DNA of 38,828 bases, taken from positions 1 to 38,828 of the IMG/VR virus record IMGVR_UViG_3300022687_000023; one strand, 5' to 3'. This stretch comes from a virus. The number at the start of each line of letters is the position of its first letter. Positions within the stretch are counted from its first letter, which is position 1. The position numbers and the translations under genes are program-made. Of the stretch, positions 245 to 36,108 are shown piece by piece. The notes beneath the pieces were generated by a model that saw only the letters and a program-made list of their open reading frames with translations, had not been told where the DNA came from and did not search any database.

Positions 245-1372
245 CTATCCCAAATACCGAAATCCCTGCACCGCACGGAAGTGTCCGCCATAGCCGCCCT
301 TCGCGGCCGTCGCTTTCGCGCCCCCACGCTTGAGCTCCGACCGCAGAATAGATTGCCGGCATCTGACCTTGTTCTGCCCGTAGAGATGCGCACTGACCTG
401 GCACCAGCGAGGATCTCGCCTAAGGGCGGCCGCGAGGCCGGGGTGAGACGTGTGAAACAGAGTCGGCATCGGTCGGCCGTACCGGTTGCGTCCGCGCCGC
501 CAGCGGTCGCATACGGCGTTCAGGAAGCGCATTCCGACGCCAGCGCCCTGCCACTCCGGCATGATGACGAGGCGGCAGGCGCGCGCCTCCTTCAGCCCTG
601 GCCGCGTGCTGAATGCGACGTGGGCCACCGGGGTGCCATCCGCTAGTCCGACATAGTTGGTCGCCGCGATCATCTTCGGCAGCTTCAGATAGTGATGCGG
701 CTCAAACAGCGGCCAGTGCCGCCAATCGGTTTCGTGGATGGAGAGCCTGATATCGGGGCGTCGCCAAAGACCCCTCCCGGCATACTTGCCCGTCGCTGTG
801 TCCAGAACCCAATCCGGCTCCAGCCATTCGACGATGTCGTAATGGCACGAGAGCAAGACGCACTGCCCGCCAGTCCGGCGCCAGGCTTTCTGGAAGGCGA
901 GGGCGCCGATCTTTGCAATCTGGCGGTCGACTACGCTGGTGAACTCATCGACGACAATGCGCGCCGGCGCATCGCATACGATCCGCGCGAGATCCGCGCG
1001 GAACTTCTCGCCATTTGAGAGGGCGCTGTACGGCCGTAACCAGGCCGGGACCGATCCGAGGCCAACCGCAGAGAGCGCGGCGGTCACGGAATCAAAGTGG
1101 CCCGCCGGCGCAATCGCGTCGACGATCGGCCGGCGCTCCGGCCAGTCGCCCGGCCCGTAGAGTGCGCCGCCGCCCCAGAGCGCCCGGCCGATGCTTGACT
1201 TGCCGGAGCCGGATGGGCCGACCACAAGGCCGACGCGCCAGCCGTCATCGTCAATCGGCAACTCGACGTCCAGGTCGAAGTTGCAGCCGGTCTCGACGTT
1301 GAACAGGCTTTTGACCCTTGCGGCCCGATAGCTCTCAAAGTCCGAGCAACGATTCCTGATGCTGATCTTCAT
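245..1372 (-). CDS. ABC ATPase - GNAT fusion, Mom-like DNA-modification protein
   Basis: The protein has 375 aa from the ATG at 1372, whose ATGA overlaps the stop of the upstream ORF. Its N-terminal half is an ABC-type P-loop ATPase: Walker A GPSGSGKS (52-59), signature-like LSNGEK (118-123), Walker B IVVDE (139-143) and switch His177. Its C-terminal half is a GNAT-like acyltransferase: motif A around RLVIMPEWQGAGVG (267-280) and a conserved-looking end FRAVQGFRYL. Mu Mom is a GNAT-fold enzyme that makes a modified adenine; it has no ATPase domain. A Com homologue two genes upstream and the position at the phage right end support a Mom-type role in protecting DNA from restriction. The substrate and the task of the ATPase are unknown. 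Confidence 0.8.
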   Translation of the reverse strand: MKISIRNRCSDFESYRAARVKSLFNVETGCNFDLDVELPIDDDGWRVGLVVGPSGSGKSSIGRALWGGGALYGPGDWPERRPIVDAIAPAGHFDSVTAALSAVGLGSVPAWLRPYSALSNGEKFRADLARIVCDAPARIVVDEFTSVVDRQIAKIGALAFQKAWRRTGGQCVLLSCHYDIVEWLEPDWVLDTATGKYAGRGLWRRPDIRLSIHETDWRHWPLFEPHHYLKLPKMIAATNYVGLADGTPVAHVAFSTRPGLKEARACRLVIMPEWQGAGVGMRFLNAVCDRWRRGRNRYGRPMPTLFHTSHPGLAAALRRDPRWCQVSAHLYGQNKVRCRQSILRSELKRGGAKATAAKGGYGGHFRAVQGFRYLG

Positions 1373-1548
1373 GTGACCACCACCCGGCAATTGAAGCGCT
1401 GCTTTCTCAGAGCCGCATAGGTTCGGCGCTGGTCAGCCTCGTCACGGCAGATGACGATGACACCATACTGCTCGCGATAGCGATTGCCTTTTGGCCGGCC
1501 AGGTGCGCCGGCCGGGAGCTTGGGAAGTCTAGGGGGCTGCCTCTTCAT
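1369..1548 (-). CDS. 59-aa linker ORF of the com-mom operon
   Basis: This small basic protein lies between com and the ABC/GNAT gene. I chose the ATG at 1548 because GGAGAG lies about 6 nt upstream; a longer version from 1575 is possible. Its start overlaps the 3' end of com by 20 bases and its TGA overlaps the mom-like ATG (ATGA), so all three genes are probably translationally coupled. The N-terminus is Pro/Lys/Arg-rich (residues 1-24); the second half (about 28-59) looks like a short alpha/beta segment with VIVICRDE and RVVVT strands. I do not know the family. A nucleic-acid-binding accessory of the modification system is a guess from context. Confidence 0.6.
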   Translation of the reverse strand: MKRQPPRLPKLPAGAPGRPKGNRYREQYGVIVICRDEADQRRTYAALRKQRFNCRVVVT

Positions 1549-1726
1549 GAGCCCGCTCTCCATCGTCGCGCTCATCGGCGCTTCGGGACGGGCTCTTGAT
1601 ATCGGGAGGCCTCAGGACGATCAGCGTCCGGCATCGCCGGCACTTGATCTCGATGACGCCTTTTATAGCGTTCCGGGCGGACCGGAACAAGAGCGCTCGG
1701 CAGCGCCCGCAACGTATGGACTCCAT
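1529..1726 (-). CDS. com: Com-like zinc-binding translational activator
   Basis: The 65-aa protein starts at the ATG at 1726. Residues 1-40 match the pattern of phage Mu Com: MESIRCGRC ... LLF ... IEIKCRRC, with four Cys (6, 9, 29, 32) able to bind one zinc, followed by a hydrophobic strand. Mu Com binds the com-mom mRNA and opens a structure that hides the mom start. Here it is the first gene of a three-gene overlapping operon, so the same logic probably controls the linker ORF and the ABC/GNAT gene. The C-terminal tail (about 45-65) is polar and lies over the start of the next gene. An upstream in-frame start at 1759 would add 11 residues not found in Com. Confidence 0.85.
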   Translation of the reverse strand: MESIRCGRCRALLFRSARNAIKGVIEIKCRRCRTLIVLRPPDIKSPSRSADERDDGERAHEEAAP

Positions 1727-1751
1727 GCATCCCCGCAAGCAGACTGACCCG

Positions 1752-1789
1752 GCCGCCATCGCCCCGCCAGGGGCGAATTCGGTGGCGGC
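1752..1789 (-). promoter_or_regulatory. Nested inverted repeats in the com leader
   Basis: GCCGCCA (1752-1758) pairs with TGGCGGC (1783-1789), and inside it GCCCC (1761-1765) pairs with GGGGC (1770-1774) around a GCCA loop. The structure ends about 25 nt before the com ATG. It could fold in the com 5' leader as a regulatory RNA element, or be a DNA operator at the mom promoter. I see no GATC or GANTC site between 1727 and 1884, so methylation-dependent control as at Mu Pmom is not supported. Confidence 0.4.
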
Positions 1790-10995: not shown

Positions 10996-11010
10996 TGTTC
11001 ATTCTCCTGG

Positions 11011-11949
11011 TCAGGTGAGCGCGATGGCAAACTGGTCATTGCCTGTGCTTGGCAGCGGCCGCAGGCGTAGCGGCCACTCCACCACATCGTCAGCATTCTC
11101 GTAGCCTTCGAGCCGTTGCATCTCGCAGGTTGGGGCGGTGACGGTGACGATGTTGCCGGCCTGCGTTCCATGCGTGATTGTCGCCTCGATTTCTTCCTTC
11201 GAGAGGGCGAGGGCGAAGGGGTTGAAGTCGTCGAGCGGCAACGCTTCCACCGTGGCGGTCATCAGCTCGGCCCGGTTGACGATCTTGATTTCGTCGCGGC
11301 CGATCAGAAGCCGGGGTGTCACCTCGTTGCCCAGGTCGAGGCTGAATGTCCGCAGGACCAGGTCGACCTCATCGATACTGAAGTCGGGGGTGTTGGTGCT
11401 GTTGGCGAGAAGCGGCTTCTGGAAGCCGGTGAGGGTCGGCGCGTCACGGGCCGTTTCGCTCGGCGCGTTCCACAGGCCCGTCAGCGTCCACTGGATGTTC
11501 GGCACGCCTTGGGCCGGGATCGTAAGGACGCCCGTGCCGCGAACTCCGGTGAGAACATGGAGCGTCTCCTCGATCCAGAAATAGATCGAGATGCTTTCGT
11601 GAGCATTTGTCACTGGGGCATAGCTTACGCTGGTGTCTGTAACGATGGTTTCGCCCAAGGCGCAAGCGCGCGCCAGCGGTCCCCATCCCGGGGCGGTGCC
11701 GGCGGCGCCCGAGCCGGCAAGCTCGGTTGCGCCGGTCAGCGCGCCACGCAGGCCGCCCGCCAGCGTTGCCTGGTTCCCGAGGTAGGGAAGCTCCAGCTCG
11801 CGGGCCACATCGTCGCCGTCCATCGGCGTGAAGCTGACATTCTGCATCAGAATCCCGTTGGCCGCTCCGGTCGGTTCCGAGTCGGTGCCGTACTCGGTCT
11901 CCATCTTCGCGAGGATGATCTTGGATCGCCATTTGAGCGCCTCGGCCAT
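11011..11949 (-). CDS. Major tail tube protein, 312 aa
   Basis: A beta-rich acidic protein without membrane segments or Cys clusters, placed immediately before the tail assembly chaperone. The N-terminus (MAEALKWRSKIILAKMETEYG) and the body with repeated short strands fit phage tail tube proteins of the siphovirus type. Its 312 aa are larger than the roughly 150-250 aa common for tube proteins, leaving room for an extra Ig-like domain. There is no contractile sheath gene anywhere in the window, consistent with a non-contractile tail. Confidence 0.8.
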   Translation of the reverse strand: MAEALKWRSKIILAKMETEYGTDSEPTGAANGILMQNVSFTPMDGDDVARELELPYLGNQATLAGGLRGALTGATELAGSGAAGTAPGWGPLARACALGETIVTDTSVSYAPVTNAHESISIYFWIEETLHVLTGVRGTGVLTIPAQGVPNIQWTLTGLWNAPSETARDAPTLTGFQKPLLANSTNTPDFSIDEVDLVLRTFSLDLGNEVTPRLLIGRDEIKIVNRAELMTATVEALPLDDFNPFALALSKEEIEATITHGTQAGNIVTVTAPTCEMQRLEGYENADDVVEWPLRLRPLPSTGNDQFAIALT

Positions 11950-11952
11950 CGA

Positions 11953-12171
11953 TTACGTCCTCTCCTTGGCGCGCGGCTCGCCGCCGCCTTTCTTGCTGTT
12001 GAGCTCATCCGTGCGTGCGGCTGCGCCTTCCTCGGTCGCGGCCGCCCGGCGCCGCAACTCGGCCCGATCGGGCGCGGGCGCGGTGTGCTCCCTGCGGTCG
12101 AGCTTGCCTTTCGGGTCCAGCACATATGATCCGCCGACAGCCGGTCGGGGCGGGTGGGCGCTTTTCGTCAT
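11953..12171 (-). CDS. Small basic tail-cluster protein, 72 aa
   Basis: The ATG at 12171 overlaps the previous stop (ATGA); the longer open frame through it is shadow. The N-terminal GGSYVLDPKGKLDRRE resembles small DUF2635-like/gpK-like proteins that precede tail sheath or tube genes in Mu relatives. The rest is a charged, Ala/Glu/Arg-rich probably disordered tail. It directly precedes the tail tube gene. The family call is tentative. Confidence 0.6.
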   Translation of the reverse strand: MTKSAHPPRPAVGGSYVLDPKGKLDRREHTAPAPDRAELRRRAAATEEGAAARTDELNSKKGGGEPRAKERT

Positions 12172-12602
12172 GCTTGAATCCTCACCTGGTCGGAGATCGC
12201 GAAATCGAGCTGGTAGATGATCAGGCCGTGCTGGGCGCTGACGAGCTGGCCGCGCGCGATGCGGAATGCACCCCAGACATCGCCAGGCGTCCAACCGGCG
12301 AGTGCGGCGATCGTGGCGTCCTTCAAGCTGTCGATCGCCGGCAGTGCCGGCGCGCCGGTTACATCGCCGCCCGCTTCGGCGACGATGACGATGCCGAGCA
12401 CCTCCTCGATCGTCTGGCGGTAGAGACCGGAAGCCGCATCGGCCGGGCCGCCGCGCAGCCCCAGCGGCACGACGAAAGCGGCCGGCGTTACGTTTGGCAT
12501 CGCCCCGTCGCGCACGAGGGCGGCGAGTTCGGCCAGCCCTTCGACGCGGGATCCAAGGTCCTGGATCTGGTCCTTCAGACGCGCAATGACTGCCGGGATC
12601 AT
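12168..12602 (-). CDS. Putative tail terminator-like protein, 144 aa
   Basis: Start chosen at the ATG at 12602, which overlaps the stop of gpG (ATGA) and has GGAG 8 nt upstream; a start at 12623 would lie within gpG. The N-terminal helix (IPAVIARLKDQIQDLGSRVE) and the alpha/beta body match the general pattern of Mu gp37-like/tail terminator proteins. Its position between gpG and the tail tube gene supports a role at the tail end that joins the head. Confidence 0.65.
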   Translation of the reverse strand: MIPAVIARLKDQIQDLGSRVEGLAELAALVRDGAMPNVTPAAFVVPLGLRGGPADAASGLYRQTIEEVLGIVIVAEAGGDVTGAPALPAIDSLKDATIAALAGWTPGDVWGAFRIARGQLVSAQHGLIIYQLDFAISDQVRIQA

Positions 12603-13090
12603 TCCGCCTCTCCAATCAGCCATTCGCCCGCGATTGCCTCGATGTCCGCTTCGTCGCCGTCGTCGAGGCCGAGGAAGGGCCGCGCCGGGATGGTGACCTT
12701 CTTGGCGAAGATCTGCTGCTTGCCGATCCGGAAGGCGAGCGACTTCGCGTTGACCGGCACGATGGTTGCGCCGAACTGGTGCACGGCGGCGGAGATAGCG
12801 TTGGTGCCGACTTGCAAGCCGCTGTCGTCCGCCTCGTAGGTGATCGACCCAACGAGCGCCTGGGTATCCATCAGCGTCTTTCCGCCTTCTGCGAGCGCCC
12901 GGAACGACGGAGGCCAGGGCGAACCATCAGGGCCCTCGCCACGCTCAAATCGGCTTTGCGTCGAAGCGACAAGCGCCGCGCCGATCGCGCCGTAAAGGTC
13001 GCGTGGATGCTCGGCGACGGCGGCGGCCCGGCCCAGCACCGCCAGCGCCTCGTCCGCCCCGACAACGCGGATTTGAGCCCCTCCCGCCAT
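12599..13090 (-). CDS. G: Virion morphogenesis protein, Mu gpG family
   Basis: 163 aa. Hallmarks of the phage virion morphogenesis family are visible: SRFERGEGPDGSPWPP (about 46-61), GGKTLMDTQALVGSI (about 69-83), HQFG (about 107-110) and ARPFLG (about 136-141). In Mu, gpG is needed for head-tail completion. Its start shares a base with the DUF1320 stop (TGATG). Confidence 0.9.
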   Translation of the reverse strand: MAGGAQIRVVGADEALAVLGRAAAVAEHPRDLYGAIGAALVASTQSRFERGEGPDGSPWPPSFRALAEGGKTLMDTQALVGSITYEADDSGLQVGTNAISAAVHQFGATIVPVNAKSLAFRIGKQQIFAKKVTIPARPFLGLDDGDEADIEAIAGEWLIGEAE

Positions 13091-13518
13091 CAGATGAACC
13101 CCTTGAGGTTCTCGGGCGTCATGTCCCGCTGGCGATCGGTGGTCTTCACCCCGCTCGAGCCGGATGCAGCCGGCTCGATCCCGGCAACGCTCAGCCGGAT
13201 CGTGCCGGCGGATATCTGCTTGAGGGTGGAGAGCGCGTCACGGTAGTCGGCCTCGACCTTCTCCGGAACGGCCGTCACGTGAAGCTTGTAGATGACGATT
13301 GCCTGGGCGACATCGGCGACCAGGTTGGGTGTCTCGGCGAGAGGCAGCCTGTAGCGCCCCGCCAGATAGCCGTCGATCATCGCGTCGGTATCGGCCAGGG
13401 CGCGGTCAATCACCTCCTGGTCGATCGCGCCGGCCGGCGGCGTCGCGCGGTCGGTGAGCTGGCGCAACCGGGTTGCGCCGTAGCGGTCGGTCAGTTGCTC
13501 CAGTGACGTGTAGGACAT
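13090..13518 (-). CDS. DUF1320 protein, Mu gp36-like
   Basis: 142 aa beginning MSYTSLEQLTDRYG, a start typical of DUF1320. Residues 35-60 (VIDRALADTDAMIDGYLAGRY followed by RLPL) are the family core. Such proteins are thought to act as head-tail adaptors (gp6/connector-like fold). It follows the tRNA and precedes gpG in the Mu order. The C-terminal tail is polar. Confidence 0.9.
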   Translation of the reverse strand: MSYTSLEQLTDRYGATRLRQLTDRATPPAGAIDQEVIDRALADTDAMIDGYLAGRYRLPLAETPNLVADVAQAIVIYKLHVTAVPEKVEADYRDALSTLKQISAGTIRLSVAGIEPAASGSSGVKTTDRQRDMTPENLKGFI

Positions 13519-13552
13519 CAGGCGCGCTCAACAGGTTGGTTTCGGGTCCGGT

Positions 13553-13587
13553 GCCGGTGGCGGCCTCGTCGGAAAACCGCCACCGGC
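13553..13587 (-). other. 11-bp hairpin between tRNA and DUF1320 gene
   Basis: GCCGGTGGCGG (13553-13563) and CCGCCACCGGC (13577-13587) form a perfect 11-bp stem with a 13-nt loop. It lies 45 nt beyond the encoded CCA of the tRNA and 35 nt before the next ATG. It may be a processing or stability element for the tRNA precursor, or a partial terminator. Confidence 0.55.
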
Positions 13588-13631
13588 GTCGGGTTGCGCC
13601 GGGCGACAGGAACACACGGCGCGCTGGGTAT

Positions 13632-13707
13632 TGGTTGCGGGGGCAGGAGTCGAACCTGCGGCCTCCGGATTATGAGTCCGGCGCTCTGACCTCTGAGCTA
13701 CCCCGCC
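13632..13707 (-). tRNA. tRNA with CAU anticodon (Met-type), unpaired G1/A72
   Basis: A complete cloverleaf with encoded CCA. Acceptor GGCGGGG / CCCCGCA, D-stem GCTC/GAGC, anticodon stem CCGGA/TCCGG with loop CTCATAA (anticodon CAU), variable AGGCC, T-arm GCAGG-TTCGACT-CCTGC, discriminator A. Six acceptor pairs form, but G1 and A72 do not pair, a feature of initiator tRNAs; the 3' strand CCCCGCAACCA equals that of E. coli tRNA-fMet. The C11:G24 pair and A31:U39 pair are elongator-like. It begins 8 nt after the stop of the upstream protein gene, so it is inside the late mRNA. Met elongator, Ile2 (lysidine) or an initiator-like hybrid remain possible. Confidence 0.9.
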
Positions 13708-13714
13708 GCGTCTG

Positions 13715-14437
13715 TCACTCCGCCGGCGTTTCGTCCGGCTCGACCCGCACGATGAGCTGTGGGTCGGCGTCCATTGCTTCGATGGCGGCCGCGCTCACTT
13801 GCGGCGCGGGAATACGGGTTTCCTGCTTCCCGAATGAACGTCCCGCCCGCCGTCTGCGATCGACCTTGGCCGTTACGATCACGACCCAGCCGGGCGTGCC
13901 GTAAACCTCGGACGGGTCCGGGGACGCGACACCTTTGCCCGGCCCGGCCTCGGATGCGCCGGATGGCACAGGCGGGGAAGCCTCGCCGGAGACTGGCGTG
14001 CCGCCCGCATCCGCTCCCCCGCCCTCTGCGCCGCCACTGGCATTGGTAGTCTCGTTTGAGCCGGCAGCGGGAGACGAGCTGGCGCCGTCGATGCTCTTGC
14101 TGGTGTGGGAGCCGCTCGCATCCCCCGCCGCCGTACCTGAATGAGATTTCACGTCGCCAGACTGGGCTCCGCCGGCCAGCTTCGTCGCCGCAACGGTCCA
14201 GGCGGGCCAGTCGCTCCCGCCGGGAATGTCCAGCACGCCATCCAGTTTCGCGCGCGTCGCCTCGTCCAGGACGGCAAGCTGCGCGAATGTGGCGATGCCC
14301 GCACTGGCCAGCTTCTTGACGGTCGCCGGCCCGATGCCCGAGATCTTGGTGAGATCGTCGGCCGGCGCGGCCGGAGAGCTTGCGCCCCCCTTTGCGGCCG
14401 CGCCGGCGCTCTCTGGGGTATTCTTTTGCTTAGCCAT
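13715..14437 (-). CDS. FluMu HI1506-like protein with helix-hairpin-helix domain
   Basis: 240 aa in three parts. Residues about 27-60 are a helix-hairpin-helix (DDLTKISGIGPATVKKLASA), usually DNA-binding or a protein contact. Residues about 90-180 are a Ser/Gly/Ala/Pro-rich linker. The C-terminal part (about 183-230) has RRRRAGRSFGKQETRIP and ..ALEAMDADPQLIV-like sequence as in the Mu-like prophage FluMu HI1506 family. It lies between capsid and DUF1320 genes. A head completion or DNA-contacting role inside the head is inferred. Confidence 0.8.
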   Translation of the reverse strand: MAKQKNTPESAGAAAKGGASSPAAPADDLTKISGIGPATVKKLASAGIATFAQLAVLDEATRAKLDGVLDIPGGSDWPAWTVAATKLAGGAQSGDVKSHSGTAAGDASGSHTSKSIDGASSSPAAGSNETTNASGGAEGGGADAGGTPVSGEASPPVPSGASEAGPGKGVASPDPSEVYGTPGWVVIVTAKVDRRRRAGRSFGKQETRIPAPQVSAAAIEAMDADPQLIVRVEPDETPAE

Positions 14438-14489
14438 GCGGCCCGATCCTTCTTGCTTCGCGTTCGCGTCTTCGCTGGACTGTCCCGGT

Positions 14490-15383
14490 TCAGGCCAGCC
14501 AGGGCACGACTAGGAGCTCGGCCGTGTTCTTGTAGACGTTGGTCGCGCCGGCGGCGTCGCGCTCGGCATTGAGGATCTCCAGGCCCTCGCCTTCGAGAGA
14601 CGGCGGCACGACGAGCAGGTCGGGCATCAGGCCGAGCGGGCGCCCGCCGTCGCCCTTCATGCCCATCAGCGCCTCGCGGCCGGCGGCATAGGCATCCTTG
14701 TCGAGGGTCTGCTTCGAGCCGTAGGCCATCTGCCAGAAGCCGAAGCCCACTTCCATCCGGCCGTCGACGCCGTAACGGAATTCCTTGAGGTCGAAGACAT
14801 TGTCGTCGGTCGGTTTGTCCTTGGCGACGAAGTTGAACGCTTCGCGCTCCTGAAAGATGAGTGGCTTGAGTGCCCGCTTGGTGCTGAGCAGGTACCAGCC
14901 AGTGCCGCCGCCGCCGCCCGTGTTTGAGACGGAGGTGACCTCGCCGTTGGCGTCGAGCACGGGATGGTCGGTGTCGAAGAAGTTCTGGCCGTCATAGCAG
15001 GGGCTGTCGAAGCCGCCCTTCAGGAGGCCCCACACCAGCATGTCGGGATGCGCGGCCGTCGACATGCCCATTTCCTGGAACATGGGCGTGTAGACGCCGA
15101 GATTGTCGTCCTTGATGTCGTCGCGGTCGACGCCGATCGTCAGCTCCCACGTCTTGTTGACGATCGCGTAATCGTGCTCCTGCAGGCCGTGCACGGCGCG
15201 CGGGCCGATCCACTCGCGGACGTTCGGCATCTTGCCGAGCCAGCCATATTTGTTCTCGCGGGTGCTGGAGGGCACGGTGGTCGCGATGCGGCCGTACTGT
15301 GTTTCGGCCTGGCCAAGCCCCTGCTGGAAGCTGGTCTTGAAGCCGACGCGAAGCGCGTCGAGATTGGCGCTGTTGATGATCAT
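14490..15383 (-). CDS. T: Major capsid protein, Mu gpT family
   Basis: 297 aa with clear Mu major head subunit features: start MIINSANLDALRVGFKTSFQ, Y-G-W-L-G-x-P-x-x-R-E-W-G segment (about 46-60), the ELTIGVDRDDIKDD motif (about 80-95), and YDGQNFFDTDHPV (about 130-142). It assembles the icosahedral head after scaffold removal by gpI. It follows the decoration protein gene as in other Mu-like phages. Confidence 0.95.
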   Translation of the reverse strand: MIINSANLDALRVGFKTSFQQGLGQAETQYGRIATTVPSSTRENKYGWLGKMPNVREWIGPRAVHGLQEHDYAIVNKTWELTIGVDRDDIKDDNLGVYTPMFQEMGMSTAAHPDMLVWGLLKGGFDSPCYDGQNFFDTDHPVLDANGEVTSVSNTGGGGGTGWYLLSTKRALKPLIFQEREAFNFVAKDKPTDDNVFDLKEFRYGVDGRMEVGFGFWQMAYGSKQTLDKDAYAAGREALMGMKGDGGRPLGLMPDLLVVPPSLEGEGLEILNAERDAAGATNVYKNTAELLVVPWLA

Positions 15384-15419
15384 CTGTGTTCTGTCCTCTT
15401 TGCGTGTCGCGCGCTGGCG

Positions 15420-15875
15420 TCAGGCTTCGGGGTTGGTGATGCCGGCGAGGTAGGTCTGGACCATCGCTTCGTCGAAGCGCACCCAGACGCCAATCTCGTC
15501 GACATGATCGACGAAGCCGGCGATCGAGCGGGCGCCGGTACCATCCGTGGCCGCCACCGTTTCGTCATCCACGGCATAGGCCGGCATGCCGATGTGAGAG
15601 GCGTCGATTTCGTCGCCATCGGCCGAATTCGCGAAGCGGAAGACGCCCGGTCGGTAATCGGCCTCGACAGCGGCATCGGCGCCGCCCGTATTGTCGGCGC
15701 GGCTCTGGGTGCGGCCCACGCCGATCAAGCCTGTCGCGGTCTGCCCGGCGACGAGGAAGCCATCGGCGTCGCGCATGACGAGCGCGCCCTTGTAAAGAAC
15801 CTCGTCGGCTGCGACCCCGCCGCGACGGTCGGAGCCGATCGCTTCGGGGGTGTTACGGTCAGCGCTGAGCGCCAT
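15420..15875 (-). CDS. Capsid decoration/cement-like protein, 151 aa
   Basis: It lies between the protease/scaffold gene and the capsid gene, sharing a base with the gpI stop (TGATG). The sequence is beta-rich with capping-protein-like stretches (GALVMRDADGFLVAG, FRFANSADGDEIDAS) and no Cys. In Mu-like phages this position often carries a DUF2190-like or gpD-like decoration protein. Position and composition carry the call. Confidence 0.7.
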   Translation of the reverse strand: MALSADRNTPEAIGSDRRGGVAADEVLYKGALVMRDADGFLVAGQTATGLIGVGRTQSRADNTGGADAAVEADYRPGVFRFANSADGDEIDASHIGMPAYAVDDETVAATDGTGARSIAGFVDHVDEIGVWVRFDEAMVQTYLAGITNPEA

Positions 15876-16564
15876 CAGAGCACCTCCTGGGCTTTGGCCT
15901 CATTGGCCAGGGTTTTCTTGTAGGCGTCGGCGTCGAGGCCAAGCAGAGCGACCGCGCTCGAATGAGCGTCGCCCATTGCAGCTCCGCCGCCCTTCGGCTG
16001 TTCGGCGACGAGGCGTCCGCCATCGATCTTCGGCAGGGCCGAAAGCTCGGCCTTGACCTCTTCGAGGGCCGCGGCGCCAGCGCTCCCGCGCTTGATGTAG
16101 TGGTCGCGCAGCGCCTTCGCGCCAACGCGGCCTTCCTTGATCGCGCCATCGACCAGGGCCGTTGCCGCCTCGGTGCCGCGGTCCGCCTGCAGGGTCGCGA
16201 GTTTGGTGCCCAGCTCCTTCAACTCGGCGTGCAGCGCGGCGACGGTGTTGGCGTCGCCGCCGTTCCGGCTCAGCGTCTCGACGGCTGCCACGATCGCGTC
16301 GGCGCCGGCGTCATCCTTCAGGCCGGCCGCCTTGGCGACCTTCGCGAGGGTCGCTTTCGCCGCGCCGTCCTGGGCCAGCTTCTCGACGGCCACAAGGACA
16401 ACCTTACCGTCCGCGCCATCATCGAGGCCGGCGGCCTTGGCAAGGGCGGACATCTCTTCCTTGGCGGGCCCCTTCTTGAGCGCGGCAATGGCTTCCATCG
16501 CCGCCTCCTCGGTCGCGTCATCGGCAAGGCCTAGCGCCTTGCGCAGCTTGGCAAGCAAATCCAT
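15875..16564 (-). CDS. Z: Nested in-frame scaffold protein, Mu gpZ analogue
   Basis: Inside the gpI frame an ATG at 16564 (MDLLAKLRKALG) has AAGGAG 7 nt upstream, far better than the gpI start itself. It would give a 229-aa, almost wholly helical Ala/Lys/Glu-rich protein, as expected for an assembly scaffold. Mu uses the same arrangement, with Z starting within I in the same frame. Confidence 0.8.
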   Translation of the reverse strand: MDLLAKLRKALGLADDATEEAAMEAIAALKKGPAKEEMSALAKAAGLDDGADGKVVLVAVEKLAQDGAAKATLAKVAKAAGLKDDAGADAIVAAVETLSRNGGDANTVAALHAELKELGTKLATLQADRGTEAATALVDGAIKEGRVGAKALRDHYIKRGSAGAAALEEVKAELSALPKIDGGRLVAEQPKGGGAAMGDAHSSAVALLGLDADAYKKTLANEAKAQEVL

Positions 16565-17083
16565 GTCGTTGCTCCTTGAGTTCAGGGAAACCAGATCCGG
16601 CAGGCCTGGATCATTCGTCAGCGCAGCGCGCAGCAGCTCCAGCACGCGGCCGCTTTTCTCGTCATAGGTGAAGACCGGCGAGATGTGCCGATAGGCTTTG
16701 TCATCGAGCAGGGCCTTGCCGCTGTTGGTCCACTCAACCCGGCCATAGAGGCCGTCGCCGCGGGTCTGCAGTTCGACGATCCAGCCGCGCGCCGGCGCGG
16801 GCTCGCCGCGCTTGGCGGCGAAGTCAGTCGCATGGTCCTGGTCGATCACCAGCCTGCCGCCGCCTCGTTTCAGGCTGGCGCGAGCGATCACATCCAAATT
16901 CTCGCACTGGAAAGGCCCGCGACCGTCCACGGTCACGAAGCGACCGGCCGGCAGCAGCCGGACCCAGTCCGTCCCCTGCTCGAGCTCGGCCAGCGGGGCG
17001 GCCATGAGGGCCGTCGCCGGGAGGGCGTTGAGAATGGCTGTTGCGCTGGTGCGGTACATGACGGCACTATTGCCGCGACGCAC
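15875..17083 (-). CDS. I: Head maturation protease, Mu gpI family, with scaffold domain
   Basis: 402 aa from a GTG at 17083; an ATG at 17059 (MYRTSAT) is an alternative, and neither has a strong ribosome site. The N-terminal half (about 25-170) is the Mu I protease: WVRLLPAGRFVTVDGRGPF, VIDQDHATDF (with the catalytic-type His), ..YRHISPVFTYD. The second half is a long Ala/Lys/Glu-rich helical scaffold. In Mu, gpI cleaves scaffold and itself during head maturation. It is the first structural gene after the SIR2 cargo gene, and a hairpin lies just upstream. Confidence 0.9.
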   Translation of the reverse strand: MRRGNSAVMYRTSATAILNALPATALMAAPLAELEQGTDWVRLLPAGRFVTVDGRGPFQCENLDVIARASLKRGGGRLVIDQDHATDFAAKRGEPAPARGWIVELQTRGDGLYGRVEWTNSGKALLDDKAYRHISPVFTYDEKSGRVLELLRAALTNDPGLPDLVSLNSRSNDMDLLAKLRKALGLADDATEEAAMEAIAALKKGPAKEEMSALAKAAGLDDGADGKVVLVAVEKLAQDGAAKATLAKVAKAAGLKDDAGADAIVAAVETLSRNGGDANTVAALHAELKELGTKLATLQADRGTEAATALVDGAIKEGRVGAKALRDHYIKRGSAGAAALEEVKAELSALPKIDGGRLVAEQPKGGGAAMGDAHSSAVALLGLDADAYKKTLANEAKAQEVL

Positions 17084-17094
17084 GCAAAGATGTT

Positions 17095-17112
17095 CCCCGA
17101 AGGGCTTCGGGG
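17095..17112. terminator. CCCCGAA-TTCGGGG hairpin upstream of gpI
   Basis: CCCCGAA GGGC TTCGGGG: 7-bp stem, 4-nt loop, 158 nt after the stop of the SIR2 gene and 11 nt before the gpI GTG. It nearly equals the palindrome at 27563-27580. It may terminate the cargo transcript, or hide the gpI ribosome site in read-through RNA. Confidence 0.5.
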
Positions 17113-17269
17113 AGGGGAGCGATGGGCTGGCGGGTCAACGACCACTATGAAGAGGTGATGGAAGCGGATTAGCGACGGTGGCGCGTATCGCTGAAGCAGG
17201 TGTCTCGTACTGCCCTGTTCCTAGCGCCTGTCGCGGCGTTAGTTTTCGGATTCTGGCGGGGCTGACAGC
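17113..17269 (-). other. Non-coding gap between SIR2 cargo gene and gpI
   Basis: No gene is seen. In Mu a late, activator-dependent promoter (PI) lies upstream of gene I, so this is the expected place for one. A TTGACC reads on the minus strand at about 17138-17133 but no good -10 follows. Nothing firm can be called. Confidence 0.3.
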
Positions 17270-20200
17270 TTATCTGCGCTCAACGAGAGCGGGCGATTGT
17301 GCTGTAACTACGTTAATTGCAGTCGCTCCCCGGAAGGTGAAGGCAAGGTTGAATGTAACGTCTTCATAGAGCTGTATATTTTCCCAAGCTTCATGAGCGC
17401 TGTTGTTTTCATGCGCGAAAATATTCCGACCGTGAATCGGGCTCGCGATGAACACGTAGCCGACTTCCTGCTTGACGACTTGACCCTTGAAGATCGAAAG
17501 TTCTCCATCCTGATCGGTCAAGGAGGCTTTGGTCTGCCTTTTCGCCGCTGGGGAAACGTCGGCATCCTGCAAGCTGTCAAATATACTGTCGCTGGTGGCA
17601 AAGTCGCCTGCACGAAATAGCTCGCGTCCATACCAGAGCTGAGCGTCATAATTGCTGTCGCCATTCGAAAAGCCCGAGCGGAAATGCTGTATCGCCGAAC
17701 TCCGCTCGGCGGCATCGGACGATTCTGCGTGAAGCATACCTAGTCGCCAGTGAGCTGTCTTTGCCGTTGGGTGCTCAGAAATGACCTTCCGCAAGACGCT
17801 CTTTGCGGAAGCAACGTCGCCGCCATCGAGATAGAGATCCGCCAATCTGACAGCGATCCACTCCTGCCGCGAATTTGCAGTGAAGGCCCTCTCCAAGGCA
17901 AGTTTAGCCTTGGGCTCGTCGCTTATCGCGGTTCGATAGTTCGCCTCGGTGGTCAAAATGTACTCATCGTTCGGAAATAGAATCCGACCAGTCGATATCT
18001 CGGCTTCAATTTCCTTCATGCGCTCTACAAGGACGCGATCCCGGCCGCCTTCCTCAGCCTCTTCTCGGAGATGATCTTTCAATTCATCCACCAGAACTTG
18101 CAATCTAGTGTTGACCGCGTAGGCATGCCGGCGAGAACCGGAACCAAGGCGGTGGAGTGAACGGTGGCGGTACTGCTTTCGAAGAAGCGGATTGGTTTCT
18201 TCTAGCGCCTTCTTCCGATAAAGGACCGCCATCGAATGCTGAATGCTGGCATCGTGCTCAGCAAGCTTTTCGGCATCTCCTAGAAGTGACTCAGCGCGTC
18301 TGAGGTTGCCACCGCCGTGGTTCATCTCGAATATCGCTTCCTGCTGAAGCACATACGGGTCATCCTGTCCGACCGCTTCGCGCGCGACTTTATAGAGTGA
18401 CCGACCCATTTCCACCGAGGGGAAGGCGTCGACCACGGCGCGCCCTCGCGTCAAATGATCAAACGCCTCCTTGTCCACGGAGAAGCTGATGTTCAGACCG
18501 CCCAAGATTCGCAGAATCTGATTCAGCATGTCTTCATGACTCGACAGCGTCTCAGAGAAAACAATCTCCGCGACGTGAGGGTGTCTGGCACGATACAAAC
18601 GGTCGCCGATATAGCGGTCGTATTCGCTATAGACAATCTTCTCAAGGGGCCGAAACAGCTCCTTCTCGAACTCATCGAAATGGATGTCGGATACTCTGGC
18701 GATCACACCCGCACGTACCGGGACGCCGAACCGGTTAAGGGTACAGACGTCAAGATAAAGGAGCTTCGCAGAGTCGGGCGTAATGCGGGCGTATTCGTCA
18801 GCGACGATCTCTTCGAAGGGGCGCCCGAGGGTTGCCTCATGGAGTGCTACGAGGATCTGTCGTTGCGCCCTGTCCTTAAATGCTCTCACACGATCATCGG
18901 GCTTCAAGTCCGCCAAAAGTCCCAAAGCTCGGTGGGTCTGTAGCTTTTCGAGGAGCTCGCCAATCTCCAAGTCCGAAAGGTAGCGAACCGGGTAGGAATT
19001 CACTACAAATTCCTCTAGAGCCTCGCAACGCGTGTTCCATTCGTTGTCGCGTTCAGCAGCGACGACGCTCAGTTGCACTTTCCGAGTCTGCATCTGTTTT
19101 AGAAACTGCGACAGTTCCGAGACGCGGAGCGATGGGCGATCGACAAATAGAAAGATGCGGCGATTGGTGATTTCGTAGATTTCCTGAAAATGATTGGCGC
19201 GAAGCGCGCCGACATCGGAAAGATAGAAAACCAACGCGTCATAGTCGGTGGCCGCGTCCCATGCCGTTCGCTTAAGTGCTGTGGTCTTACCGTTACCGGC
19301 TGCTCCCTTGAGCACGAAGAGTTCGACTGGCTTCCTAGATGCGGTTTCTTCCTCGAGGACAGCGTCAACGAGAATAGTGTCGGAAACCTTCCGGCGAACG
19401 TCCATCTTTGCCAGGATGCCTGCAAATCCGCGGTCATAGCCCTTGTAGTAGTCGACTGGCGCCACTTGCTCGACCGGCATGCCGGACCGGACATGAAGGA
19501 TGTCGGTAGTGAGATACTGCACCGTGGTGTCGCTGTAGGTGCGGTTGCCTAGTACACGGAAGCGATCGATCGAAGGTGCGTCGGAAGGATTGATTTTAGA
19601 AAGTTTGCGGTTATTGGCGGGAATTTGCTGATCCAACTCCTTGAGAAACGCTTCAAAGGTCGCCTTGATCGCGGTAATGCGATTGGCTTGCCAGTCACGG
19701 GCTTCGATTTCATCGAACGTGGGCGAGACTACATAATATTGCGGCCGTCTCTGGTTCGCATTGAACAGGTCGAAAAGCACCGTTTGTACGTTCGGATCGT
19801 CGATGGAATAGCCGCAAAAGATTATGGGGAATTCGTGTCCCATGCCTTTGAGCATATCGAATAACCGCGACCGGTGCCGCGCGAAGGTGACATACTGATC
19901 GGATGTTATGATCAGCGGGGCTTCAGGGTCGTTCGAGTGATGCAGGCATCCGTGCAGTTTGAGGAATTTAAGCGGGTTCTGAAATTTTTTCGCATCTCTC
20001 TCTACAAGCTGGTCATTCTTAATGAAGGGTACCAGCGTTTGCAGCGACTGCTTATTTGTTTGGTATGCGCGGTCGACGATGAGATCATAATTGGTGGTCG
20101 CGATAGCGTGCCAATGAAATTCCGGTATCAGCTGGTGGAAGTCGGCGGGAGAAAAATCGATAAAGACATCCCTGAGATACGATTGCATCAACAGCAGTCC

Positions 20201-20443
20201 AGCCTCCGAAACACAATACCGTGCTACGACAGCAAGCGACCGATCCTTGAGCTTGCCGCCAAGAAATTTATCAGAAAGCAGATCCCTCAGGTCGTCTCCC
20301 TTGGGAGCGCGGGTTTGCGGATTCGGATGCTTGGCACCTCTGGATGCCCCGGATCCTAGGAACAAGATTGCATTGCCTTCGCGCACGGCGTCGATGAGCG
20401 TCGGCGGAAGGTTTAGCGGCGTTTGGTTCAAAATCCCCCCCAT
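17270..20443 (-). CDS. SIR2 - P-loop NTPase - TPR-like - cold-shock-like defence protein
   Basis: 1057 aa from the ATG at 20443 (a TTG at 20482 would add 13). SIR2-like domain, about 10-270: FLGSGAS (28-34), TTNYD with Asn118, KLHG with His164, GYSIDDPN (211-218), the usual NADase residues. P-loop domain from about 330: GAAGNGKT (380-387) and IFLFVD with Asp435. A long helical, TPR-like part follows (about 690-970). The end (987-1046) has a cold-shock/OB pattern: GYVFI, NIFAHE, VTFNL, RGATAINV. SIR2-STAND proteins such as Avs5 sense phage and deplete NAD; a defence role is inferred. Sampled 60-base lines are 40-47% GC against about 70% nearby, so it is recently acquired cargo in the late operon. 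No partner gene is seen. Confidence 0.85.
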   Translation of the reverse strand: MGGILNQTPLNLPPTLIDAVREGNAILFLGSGASRGAKHPNPQTRAPKGDDLRDLLSDKFLGGKLKDRSLAVVARYCVSEAGLLLMQSYLRDVFIDFSPADFHQLIPEFHWHAIATTNYDLIVDRAYQTNKQSLQTLVPFIKNDQLVERDAKKFQNPLKFLKLHGCLHHSNDPEAPLIITSDQYVTFARHRSRLFDMLKGMGHEFPIIFCGYSIDDPNVQTVLFDLFNANQRRPQYYVVSPTFDEIEARDWQANRITAIKATFEAFLKELDQQIPANNRKLSKINPSDAPSIDRFRVLGNRTYSDTTVQYLTTDILHVRSGMPVEQVAPVDYYKGYDRGFAGILAKMDVRRKVSDTILVDAVLEEETASRKPVELFVLKGAAGNGKTTALKRTAWDAATDYDALVFYLSDVGALRANHFQEIYEITNRRIFLFVDRPSLRVSELSQFLKQMQTRKVQLSVVAAERDNEWNTRCEALEEFVVNSYPVRYLSDLEIGELLEKLQTHRALGLLADLKPDDRVRAFKDRAQRQILVALHEATLGRPFEEIVADEYARITPDSAKLLYLDVCTLNRFGVPVRAGVIARVSDIHFDEFEKELFRPLEKIVYSEYDRYIGDRLYRARHPHVAEIVFSETLSSHEDMLNQILRILGGLNISFSVDKEAFDHLTRGRAVVDAFPSVEMGRSLYKVAREAVGQDDPYVLQQEAIFEMNHGGGNLRRAESLLGDAEKLAEHDASIQHSMAVLYRKKALEETNPLLRKQYRHRSLHRLGSGSRRHAYAVNTRLQVLVDELKDHLREEAEEGGRDRVLVERMKEIEAEISTGRILFPNDEYILTTEANYRTAISDEPKAKLALERAFTANSRQEWIAVRLADLYLDGGDVASAKSVLRKVISEHPTAKTAHWRLGMLHAESSDAAERSSAIQHFRSGFSNGDSNYDAQLWYGRELFRAGDFATSDSIFDSLQDADVSPAAKRQTKASLTDQDGELSIFKGQVVKQEVGYVFIASPIHGRNIFAHENNSAHEAWENIQLYEDVTFNLAFTFRGATAINVVTAQSPALVERR

Positions 20444-20635
20444 AGCCGAAAAGTCGAACAGCAACTCTAGTTTTGAATTCAAAGCAGAGTAATGCGCCTC
20501 GCCTCGTATTAAAATCGATTTTGAAGGGGCTTAAAAGCCCGTCGAAGGGCTCAAAAGTCTTTCGTGGGCCCTGGACACTAGCCAAGGTCGGCAGACGGTC
20601 TCTAAGGATCTGTGACGATCGCCGCTGGAGTGGGC
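20444..20635 (-). promoter_or_regulatory. AT-rich region upstream of SIR2 cargo gene, with hairpin
   Basis: The stop of gpF and the cargo gene start are about 190 bases apart, unlike the overlapping genes around. GGGCT (20527-20531) and AGCCC (20536-20540) form a short hairpin that could end the gpF transcript. Downstream on the minus strand lies an AT-rich stretch with a -10-like TAATAC near 20510. This suggests a private promoter for the cargo gene, but no strong -35 is seen. Confidence 0.35.
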
Positions 20636-21277
20636 CTACCTGAGCCGCTCCCAGGCAACTCCCACATTGCCCGACCAGCCTGGATCGGGCGGGATCGCCA
20701 AGCGCGGGTCATCGCCGGGCGTGATGGAATACGCGTAGCGGGCGAGATCGCGCTCAGAAAGGCTCTGGGCGTAACAGCGGCACTGGAAGCCGTTCGGCGG
20801 ATAGTGCGTCAGCCAAAATGGATCATCGACGGGCAGCACGACACCGTGCCACTCGCGGTGCGTCTCGCGCACACGAGGGTCGTTAGCCGTCACATAGCGA
20901 ATATAGGGTCGAATGCGCTTGAGCTGCTGGATCTGCGCCCAGCGGCCCGCGGCGCGCGCATTCGCTGTCTGCACCCGAAAGATCAGATTCGCGCGCCGGC
21001 CGGCGTCCTCTTCGCCATCGCTCCAGCCATACTCGGCGACGATGCGATCATACTCCCTGCGGAAGTCGGCCGCCGTGCCGCCTTTCTCCATGATTTCCAG
21101 TATCGCTTTCAGCATGTCCTGACGGAGCGCCTCGGCCGCCTGGTCGGCCGCGCTGCTTGAGGCAGTATCGGCGCCGGCTAGAACTGCCCGCCACTGCGTT
21201 TCGCTGATCCCCAGCTGGCCCCGCAGGAAGTCGATCGCCTCCTGGAACCGGACCGCGAATTCCCTTGCGTCAGCCAT
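20636..21277 (-). CDS. F: Minor head/morphogenesis protein, Mu gpF family (short)
   Basis: 213 aa. The gpF/SPP1 gp7-type core is visible: VQTANARAAGRWAQI (about 117-131), RPYIRYVTANDPRVRETHRE (about 138-157), W-HGVVLPVDDPFW, and HYPPNGFQCRC (about 173-183) with its two Cys. Mu gpF is about twice as long, so this is a reduced form; the first 100 residues are a helical linker. Its start overlaps the portal gene by 8 bases. It precedes the cargo gene but its C-terminus looks complete. Confidence 0.85.
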   Translation of the reverse strand: MADAREFAVRFQEAIDFLRGQLGISETQWRAVLAGADTASSSAADQAAEALRQDMLKAILEIMEKGGTAADFRREYDRIVAEYGWSDGEEDAGRRANLIFRVQTANARAAGRWAQIQQLKRIRPYIRYVTANDPRVRETHREWHGVVLPVDDPFWLTHYPPNGFQCRCYAQSLSERDLARYAYSITPGDDPRLAIPPDPGWSGNVGVAWERLR

Positions 21278-22838
21278 CGCCTCTCACAATCTCGTCGGCC
21301 AGTTCAGCGCGGCCGGACAGCTCTGCCAGGACGAGCGCCTGGCGCATCGCCATCGCGAGATCCTCGGAGGAAAGTCGCAGCGCGGCAAGCGCCTCGCTCA
21401 GCGCCTCAGCATTCGCCGAATCCTCGACCGCCTTGCGCACCTGATCGATGATATCTTGCCGCGCGTCGGCCGTGATCGCGGCCGCGCCTGCGATCAGCTC
21501 CTCATCGTCGGGTACCCGCGGCCTGCGGGCCAGCGTCTCGCGCCCGGTTTGGGACCCGAGGGACGGCGAGGTGGGAACGCTGGGCACTGATGCGGGTTTG
21601 AGCACGTCGTCGCCCTCGTCCGGCTCGGAGAGCCCGAGCATCTCGTACATCTCTGACGTCCTAACACGCAGCCCCATGCCGACGAGCTGGCGCACGCCTG
21701 AGAGCGTCAGTCGAACGTCGCGCTCCTCGGCGCGGCCGATCCTCAAGCGCGGATAGCTCGGCTGCGGTCCGTATTCCAGATCGATCCAAGGACGGATCAG
21801 GTCGCGATTGAGGACAGCGGCGACGGATTTGCAATCGGCCCGCTCGATATCCTCCTGGACGAGGCGATGCTCCTTGCCGACCGCATGGCCCCCGGCAATG
21901 GCGTCGGTGGTCGCGGTCTGGCCGAGCACTGCTTTCGAGATCTGGCGGTCCAGCCAGTCGGAGCGCTTCTCATAGAGGTCGGAGCCCTGGCCGACATTCT
22001 TCGATTCGATGAACTCGATCAGCATGCCTTCGGGAACGATTGCGGCGCAGTCGCCGGCAATATTCGCAACGGCGCGGAACAGCGTCGCCTTATCCTCCTC
22101 GGTGGCGCTGGAGTGATATTTGCCGACACGGACAGGCTGTCCGAAGGTCTGCGCGAAGATCGCCCAATCGCGTTGCGTGAATGCCTTGAACATCCAGCCC
22201 CAGGTGGCGAGCCGCGCCAGCCCGGAGCGGATCGGCAGGCCGGACTTGGCGCGCATCACGGGCGCGATGAACTTGAAAGGCGGCAGCGGCGTGTCGCCGC
22301 CCTGGTCGATCAGCAGCGGCGTCTTGCCGTCATCGCGCGAAAAGCGGAAGTGGCGCGGGTCGCGCCATTCCAGCCGGTCCGGCCGCCACTGGCCCGCGCT
22401 CGTGTCCCAGATGATTTCCGTGAAGCTGACGCCCTTGCCGACCGCGTCGAGAATGTCGAAAAGCTCATCGGCCAGTTCGTCGCGGGCGAGCCACTCGCGC
22501 ACCGTCTCGGCCTGGTCGGCCTGGTGCTTTTCGTCGCCGGCGGCGTCGACCGTGATTTCGAGCTGGCACACGGCGCGCTTGCGCGTGCCGAGCACCGCGG
22601 CGTAATGCGGGTCGCGCTCCTCGATCAGTTCGGCCAGTTCGAGGTAGCGCATCGGCTCACCCTGGTCGGCCTCGCGCAGCATATTGGCCAGGCGCACCGG
22701 ATTTAGGCCGTCAGCCGGATAGCCGGCGAAAGGCGAGCGCACGCCGCCGATGGTCGGAGCGGCGATCTCCTGTTTCAGCGCCGCGCGCTGGATCGGCCGA
22801 TTGAACTGGTCGTAAAGGACGGGTCGGGTTTCAGCCAT
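21270..22838 (-). CDS. Portal protein, Mu gp29 family (DUF935)
   Basis: 522 aa from the ATG at 22838, which overlaps the terminase stop (TAATG) and has GAGGAGG 6 nt upstream; the frame continues upstream only as shadow. Features of DUF935: LAELIEERDPHYAAVLGTRK (about 66-85), V-GKGVSFTEI-W (about 134-144), F-K-FTQRDWAIFAQTFGQP (about 218-237) and AVLGQTATTDA (about 299-309). It forms the dodecameric portal through which DNA is packaged. The last 90 residues are a polar helical tail. Confidence 0.92.
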   Translation of the reverse strand: MAETRPVLYDQFNRPIQRAALKQEIAAPTIGGVRSPFAGYPADGLNPVRLANMLREADQGEPMRYLELAELIEERDPHYAAVLGTRKRAVCQLEITVDAAGDEKHQADQAETVREWLARDELADELFDILDAVGKGVSFTEIIWDTSAGQWRPDRLEWRDPRHFRFSRDDGKTPLLIDQGGDTPLPPFKFIAPVMRAKSGLPIRSGLARLATWGWMFKAFTQRDWAIFAQTFGQPVRVGKYHSSATEEDKATLFRAVANIAGDCAAIVPEGMLIEFIESKNVGQGSDLYEKRSDWLDRQISKAVLGQTATTDAIAGGHAVGKEHRLVQEDIERADCKSVAAVLNRDLIRPWIDLEYGPQPSYPRLRIGRAEERDVRLTLSGVRQLVGMGLRVRTSEMYEMLGLSEPDEGDDVLKPASVPSVPTSPSLGSQTGRETLARRPRVPDDEELIAGAAAITADARQDIIDQVRKAVEDSANAEALSEALAALRLSSEDLAMAMRQALVLAELSGRAELADEIVRGDG

Positions 22839-35725: not shown

Positions 35726-36108
35726 CGGTCGGCCTCGCCACGCAAGTCGCGGACGAGTGCCCGGATTTCATCCTCGTTCTGACGCTGATCCAGCAGCAGC
35801 CTGCCCAATCGGGCGTGCCGCGCCTGTTGCTCACCGACCGCGCTAAGCCCATCCTCCTCAAGCAGGACGTCCCAAAGCCATGTCGCCCCCGTAACGCGGA
35901 CGAATGCGACGAAGCGCGTGATGCCGATGTCATGCTCGGTCTTGCTTGGCGCCGTGTAGGCATAAAGGGCGTCGGCGGTGATCTCGCGGCCTGTTAGCTC
36001 CGACATGCGCGCGGCAACGATGGTCGCGCTCTCATCGTAATCCTTGAGAGCCTTGCCCATCGCTGACTTGATCCGCAGCGTCAGGTCTATCGCGCGGGGC
36101 TTGCTCAT
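35722..36108 (-). CDS. Hypothetical early protein, 128 aa
   Basis: A helical protein overlapping both neighbours by ATGA. The part AARMSELTGREITADALYAY (about 32-51) looks like a helix-turn-helix, and FVAFVRVTGATWLWDVLLEE follows. A regulator that acts with the transposase is possible; no family is recognised with certainty. Confidence 0.65.
   Translation of the reverse strand: MSKPRAIDLTLRIKSAMGKALKDYDESATIVAARMSELTGREITADALYAYTAPSKTEHDIGITRFVAFVRVTGATWLWDVLLEEDGLSAVGEQQARHARLGRLLLDQRQNEDEIRALVRDLRGEADR

Follow-up and report, generated by a model that had tools for sequence, protein, structure and literature searches.

A Com-associated operon in a Mu-like phage, predicted to specify an ATP-dependent acyl modification of DNA

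Genes at the end of a Mu-like phage genome

The window analysed here is the whole of an IMG/VR record of 38,828 bases (IMGVR_UViG_3300022687_000023), a Mu-like phage with genes for transposition (a transposase and a transposition protein) and for the portal, terminase and tail. By gene order, the last genes of the phage are an operon at the left end of the window (245-1759), made up of com, a short linker ORF and a gene for an ABC ATPase fused to a GNAT domain (ABC-GNAT; Table 1); the contig ends 244 bases downstream of the ABC-GNAT stop codon. The genes are tightly packed: com and the linker ORF overlap by about 20 nt or more, and the linker stop and the ABC-GNAT start share the sequence ATGA. 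The original prediction for this DNA had described three overlapping ORFs (a Com homologue, a 59-aa ORF and an ABC-GNAT fusion), and all of them were found on the minus strand. Between com and the tail region lies a 127-aa ORF (1885-2268) with no Pfam, PHROG or NCBIfam match. A BLAST search of the structural region (11000-24500) against phages gave nothing beyond matches of 1% coverage.

Table 1. Features of the operon
Feature	Position	Strand	Remarks
Com-like zinc-ribbon gene	1529..1759	-	CxxC..CxxC ribbon; PHROG and HMM matches, Pfam match just under cut-off
Predicted Com-binding RNA hairpin	1567..1582	-	GCGC-CGATGA-GCGC plus one flanking base per side
Linker ORF, 59 aa	1369..1548	-	PHROG 28816, 6e-15; 68 aa if the start is at 1575
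ABC-GNAT gene including stop, 375 aa	245..1372	-	Start overlaps linker stop as ATGA
ABC ATPase half, residues 1-200	773..1372	-	Walker A, LSxGE signature, Walker B DE, D-loop, H-loop
GNAT half, residues 201-375	248..772	-	CoA-binding RxVxxPxxQGxGxG; family motifs HHYL and GFRY

Out of 50,697 phage records, 70 hold a relative of the ABC-GNAT protein; further relatives were found in 81 IMG/VR stretches (80 of them retained) and in 486 stretches of genomes, from which the best 80 were taken. With relatives in all three kinds of record, the fusion is far beyond chance. When the set of com, 59-aa ORF and ABC-GNAT was sought in other phages and genomes, as the original prediction had proposed, 65 Com-linker-ABC-GNAT cassettes were recovered. 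The neighbourhood counts below refer to a 171-locus set that includes near-duplicates and in which the genome loci are the best 80 of 486; relatives were divided into close and distant ones by hand, from the identity columns and the origins of the loci.

The ABC-GNAT protein

Is the fusion, as first described, a real protein? The match of PHROG 11143 (a family of unknown function) spans the entire sequence at 7e-153, the motifs of both halves are intact, and an AlphaFold model (pLDDT 91, pTM 0.85) has two domains; Pfam returns a weak ABC match and a weak GNAT match. In VIA-align comparisons, model residues from about 1 to 203 align with ABC cassettes (Z about 15, rmsd about 3, 165-191 residues) and residues 208-375 with the GNAT protein 1y9k (Z 15.4, rmsd 3.4, 138 residues) and with RimI 5isv (Z 15.0, rmsd 3.0, 133 residues). 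Among 112 aligned sequences the ABC residues G52, S54, G55, G57, K58, S119, G121, D142, E143 and H177 are invariant, as are R267, V269, P272, G276 and G278 of the GNAT loop. Judged from the model and these motifs, both halves look active.

Several phage records annotate this protein as an ABC transporter, and a PADLOC search gave only a match to mad3 that is confined to the P-loop. These hits would fit a transporter or defence ATPase to which a GNAT domain is attached incidentally. We consider that highly improbable: the GNAT half is conserved and intact, it stays next door when the protein is split in two, and no membrane partner was seen in the annotated neighbourhoods that were read. The split form is found at loci L022-L028 and L030-L034, from several metagenomes and isolates, where ABC and GNAT are two adjoining ORFs divided near residue 200, with the linker upstream and, where there is room, a formyltransferase gene downstream (see below).

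A FastTree tree of 112 ABC-GNAT proteins places 57 of the Com cassettes scattered within a clade of 89 tips (support 0.77). Mapped on this tree by the Fitch method, the upstream arrangement changes 21 times (shuffled mean 46) and the presence of the formyltransferase gene 9 times (shuffled mean 28), and both have therefore been gained and lost repeatedly.

Com and the genes that follow it

The Com-like ORF has both CxxC pairs and matches PHROG 6417/13819 (translational regulator, 1.3e-9; gpCom, 9.6e-7). Its Pfam Zn_ribbon_Com score is borderline (22.6 bits, 7e-5, just under the cut-off of 22.9); Mu Com scores 36.8 bits with the same model, and six of six scanned Com-like ORFs of relatives exceed the cut-off with 28-73 bits. 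A home-made Com HMM, which has this Com among its seeds, gives 2e-14. The gene's first description as a Com homologue is supported. A tblastn search of phages with this Com as query returned zero matches. Translation of com likely starts at the internal ATG at 1726, directly before the ribbon.

What does Com normally accompany? In a sample of 398 genomes of Proteobacteria, Com was matched in 26, and in 24 of these over the cut-off. In 26 of 29 Com loci (a count that omits the centre genome's own, L206, and one further Com place that has no locus) Com is followed by a D12 adenine methyltransferase or close relative of it, a C5 cytosine methyltransferase, an N6/N4 methyltransferase, or Mom; the three loci with no modification enzyme adjoining Com are L216, L218 and L239. 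Some assignments need qualification. L234 and L237 fall into a single blastp cluster, and at least one of the two was scored as D12 by Pfam; L222, L224 and the partial L223 were called D12-like from reading their translations; and L221 was assigned via a Mom HMM. Such a distribution means that Com predicts a downstream DNA-modification enzyme of any chemistry. Since other Com operons appear by sequence to encode plain methyltransferases, Com need not imply Mom, and phages seem to have exchanged Mom for a different enzyme under the same Com switch. It is of note that in L205, L216 and L218 Com and its hairpin precede a DUF642 protein, an unidentified ORF and a HEAT-repeat protein.

Com would thus be a general switch, with a recognisable RNA site, for whichever DNA-modification enzyme ends the genome of a Mu-like phage, and Com operons offer a handle in the search for new modification enzymes. 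Standalone linkers occur without a recognisable Com in 24 of 89 cases, 9 of these 24 in phages with split ABC and GNAT genes, and Com is therefore an added regulator that lies outside the core of the system. At L128 Com is found about 1,058 nt upstream of ABC-GNAT and about 1 kb from the linker, perhaps because of an insertion.

A predicted Com-binding hairpin before the linker

A SELEX study with a Haemophilus Com (PMC6483171) yielded the RNA motif CC(N)2-3GAG. We scanned 100 nt around the linker start, 70 nt on its upstream side and 30 nt on its downstream side, and found this motif in 57 of 65 cassettes (shuffled mean 25.1, sd 4.5, maximum 37 in 100 shuffles); after removal of near-duplicates it was kept in 39 of 46. 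A bipartite form of the motif is present in 11 cassettes against 0.2 in shuffles. Control regions had no excess: 15/65 upstream of com, 2/65 at the ABC-GNAT start, and 8/65 and 4/64 within the gene. The related sequence GAGN2CC was enriched in one control, a stretch of the GNAT region (21/64 against 6.4), an excess that is probably due to coding. The proximal motif sites fall in all three reading frames of com (28, 15 and 10 in frames 0, 1 and 2), so that protein coding alone does not explain the motif.

The motif tends to sit in a hairpin. All three stem pairs can form at 24 of 45 proximal sites compared with 39 of 784 background sites, and the stems covary: the types of pair differ between sites, and the 88 paired cells exceed all of 2,000 shuffles of the arms (maximum 85). 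Only 28 of the 46 non-redundant cassettes have the hairpin with all three stem pairs, a shortfall that may perhaps come in part from the linker start being a predicted one. The same hairpin is present in 25 of 28 Com-methyltransferase, Com-Mom and other Com loci (L223, L239 and L206 left out, L205 included). The Mu hairpin reads AATGCCTGCGAGCATC and the copy in this phage reads AGCGCCGATGAGCGCG, its closing G lying 23 nt before the linker ATG.

In Mu, occlusion of the translation start has been described. We considered the same for the linker and rejected it as a claim, the folding signal being too weak: the RNA near the linker start shows only mild folding stability (mean z -0.88 across the 65 cassettes), and the pairing of the start itself is 0.57 against 0.50 overall.

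The linker and a ParB-like partner

The linker domain has about 40 residues whose pattern fits a strand-helix-strand arrangement. It is found directly upstream of ABC-GNAT in 109 of the 113 close relatives with at least 250 nt of upstream sequence, overlapping it as ATGA in 95 of the 109. In 89 of these the linker is a short ORF, as here, and in 20 it forms the end of a longer ORF. Distant relatives with enough room have it in 21 of 47 cases, always within a longer ORF. The original idea of a new small partner protein thus holds as far as its conserved place beside ABC-GNAT goes, but the linker is not a one-off, being fused to a ParB-like protein in many phages.

The evidence for the ParB-like identity is as follows. 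In Gordonia phages the longer ORF that bears the linker is annotated as a ParB-like nuclease domain protein, and Pfam ParB_N reached the cut-off in three of six linker-bearing longer proteins scanned. In the Microbacterium phage MenE a ParB-like protein is encoded directly before Mom, and this protein is homologous to the ParB domain of the linker-bearing proteins (E 2e-28 for the best match, with NHagos; 24 of 41 ParB-linker proteins at E <=1e-3), from which it follows that Mom and ABC-GNAT have a partner type in common. The linker domain itself was not found at eight Mom loci (six Mom-type phage loci and two Com-Mom genome loci). When the linker alignment was searched against the PDB, nothing but noise came up, such as matches of 17 residues to designed repeat proteins. 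The phage's own ParB-like gene (36108-36914, near the transposase) has no match to the 41 ParB-linker proteins. Certain distant ABC-GNATs (L053-L077 apart from L062, L067 and L071, and L086) adjoin neither a recognisable linker nor a formyltransferase gene.

These neighbours bear on what the GNAT half might modify. RimI and other protein acetyltransferases are the closest structures to it among the matches listed, and in TmcA an ATPase is coupled to a GNAT domain that acts on tRNA; the target could then be a protein or an RNA, for instance one whose modification inhibits host defence or translation, with Com providing only the timing. Such a target is unlikely in view of the DNA-modification enzymes that adjoin Com in 26 of 29 loci and of the ParB-like partner common to Mom, and we take DNA as the probable substrate.

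A formyltransferase-fold gene in relatives

Close relatives commonly have a further gene in the operon. Downstream sequence of 500 nt or more is available for 109 close relatives, and 95 of them have a formyltransferase-fold gene beside ABC-GNAT, usually overlapping or adjacent. The gene is present in 51 of the 58 Com cassettes with room for it and in none of 49 distant relatives. All four of the relatives' enzymes that were scanned exceed the cut-off for Formyl_trans_N (PF00551), and their best PDB match is 10-formyl-THF dehydrogenase (2e-40), with the motif HPSLLPRHRG. No such gene was found in the entire 38.8 kb of this phage record, which ends 244 bases past ABC-GNAT. In several formyltransferase-less relatives (L117, L142 and L149) inspection by eye revealed no phage-like ORF downstream, and ABC-GNAT may be the last phage gene there.

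A possible acceptor of the formyl group can be approached through the active site. H93, S95 and D129 (L010 numbering) are invariant in 18 sequences and look like the triad described for 10-formyl-THF dehydrogenase in PMC6802093; the same paper proposes that HypX formylates CoA on its thiol. All 29 of the relatives' formyltransferases compared lack the NxH asparagine of E. coli Fmt (N109) and PurN (N106), two enzymes with amine acceptors. It is likewise absent in 10-formyl-THF dehydrogenase, whose acceptor is the pantetheine thiol, a pattern that would fit a thiol acceptor such as CoA here. A GNAT next to such an enzyme suggests formyl-CoA as a possible donor.

Relation to Mom

The original prediction identified the GNAT part with Mom, the modification enzyme of Mu, and this identification found no support in comparison. 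The Mom family PF25680 gave no row against ABC-GNAT at E <=10 (HMMER filters discard most very weak matches), while Mu Mom as a control matched it at 2e-75. With a profile built from 15 diverse Mom proteins, HHalign gave a marginal match to the GNAT half (E 6e-4 to 7e-4, probability 27-28%), the aligned part being the N-terminal strand-helix with the HY motif. With the close relatives alone E was 0.11, the ABC half as a control gave 0.37, and a profile of 33 close Mom sequences gave a probability of 0.4%. When the GNAT half was modelled alone, its best structural matches were ordinary RimI-like GNATs, and the Mom structure 8bv8 is absent among the 50 matches listed; for Foldseek and VIA-align alike its absence concerns only the matches listed. 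After these Pfam, HHalign and structural comparisons, membership in the Mom family was not accepted. Aeromonas phage PX29 (GU396103) carries both a Mom-like gene and an ABC-GNAT (36309-36881 and 53431-54153).

Could the GNAT half nevertheless be a diverged Mom that decorates adenine with the Mom group and has acquired the ATPase as a motor? It shares with Mu mom the same Com, the Com RNA site and the position at the genome end; a ParB-like partner type is common to ABC-GNAT and Mom; in distant members the HY motif is followed by N and S, similar to Mom; a FRY-type C-terminal motif resembles that of Mom by eye; and the local HHalign E-value can be counted on its side. Yet the missing PF25680 match, the low HHalign probability and the loss of signal with close relatives alone, the canonical GNATs that head the matches listed, and the plain methyltransferases of other Com operons make it quite an unlikely reading. 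A distant common origin of the GNAT half and Mom inside the GNAT superfamily is possible. What stands of the first interpretation is a DNA-modification operon, on the strength of the Com neighbourhoods, the ParB-like partner shared with Mom and a published prediction (see below), but without the Mom identity.

Predicted function

We consider it likely, on the evidence of genes and motifs, that the linker and ABC-GNAT form an operon for an ATP-dependent acyl modification of a DNA base, switched by Com. Com would be made first, bind the hairpin in the com/linker overlap and open translation of the linker, and ABC-GNAT would then be translated by coupling through the ATGA overlap. The linker protein would be an obligate partner of ABC-GNAT; in non-Mu phages the ParB-like protein that carries the linker domain probably targets the enzyme to DNA or loads it there. 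The ABC half may use ATP to engage and distort the DNA, and the GNAT half would acylate the exocyclic amine of a base with acyl-CoA as the donor; the acylated bases would shield phage DNA late in infection. The formyltransferase-fold enzyme of relatives may make the donor (formyl-CoA from formyl-THF) or finish the added group. We infer the translational coupling, partner binding, DNA substrate and acyl-CoA use, and also the roles given to ATP and to the formyltransferase.

A more specific version, which we regard as rather unlikely, is that the full system writes a formylated DNA base by way of formyl-CoA and that Mu-like phages have put the linker under the Com switch. The formyltransferase would pass the formyl group of formyl-THF to the CoA thiol, in analogy to what is proposed for HypX, and ABC-GNAT would spend ATP in moving it to the base amine; members without the formyltransferase, perhaps including this phage, would use another acyl-CoA. 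If it is real, the modification set out above would to our knowledge be the first ATP-dependent acylation of bases in DNA and possibly also the first formylation. The chemistry predicted for ABC-GNAT proteins now comes with a defined gene set: the linker, ABC-GNAT and often the formyltransferase.

Comparison with known systems

In 2013 Iyer et al. predicted that a protein with GNAT and ABC ATPase domains acylates a DNA base, as related for phage pT24 in passages of PMC7824862. The system of this Tenacibaculum phage has the same two-domain logic and a homologous protein (H31/H32). The present operon differs in its Com and RNA hairpin, its standalone linker and, in most close relatives, the formyltransferase, none of which is mentioned in those passages. 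Likewise, the portions covered of the open-licence literature hold no description of a cassette that joins Com to ABC-GNAT or to the formyltransferase. As far as these sources go, an enzyme of the ABC-GNAT kind is already known as a prediction, and Com control with an RNA site, the identity of the linker and the formyltransferase are new.

The formyltransferase of relatives resembles the hydrolase domain of 10-formyl-THF dehydrogenase and the N-domain of HypX in its fold and in the HPSLLPRHRG motif; unlike them, it consists of one domain only, about 200 aa long, and its gene adjoins that of an enzyme of the acyl-CoA type. The ParB-like and Mom pair of MenE has a homologous ParB-like partner directly upstream, as ABC-GNAT has, but the MenE Mom comes without an ABC half, and a search for the linker domain at that locus found none. 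TmcA and NAT10 couple an ATPase to a GNAT domain that acylates the amine of a nucleobase; they differ from ABC-GNAT in having a helicase-type ATPase and an RNA substrate. Mu com-mom likewise has a Com gene, a Com RNA hairpin, overlapping genes and a place at the end of the phage genome, whereas here ABC-GNAT and the linker replace Mom, and the Com site stands before the linker rather than before the enzyme.
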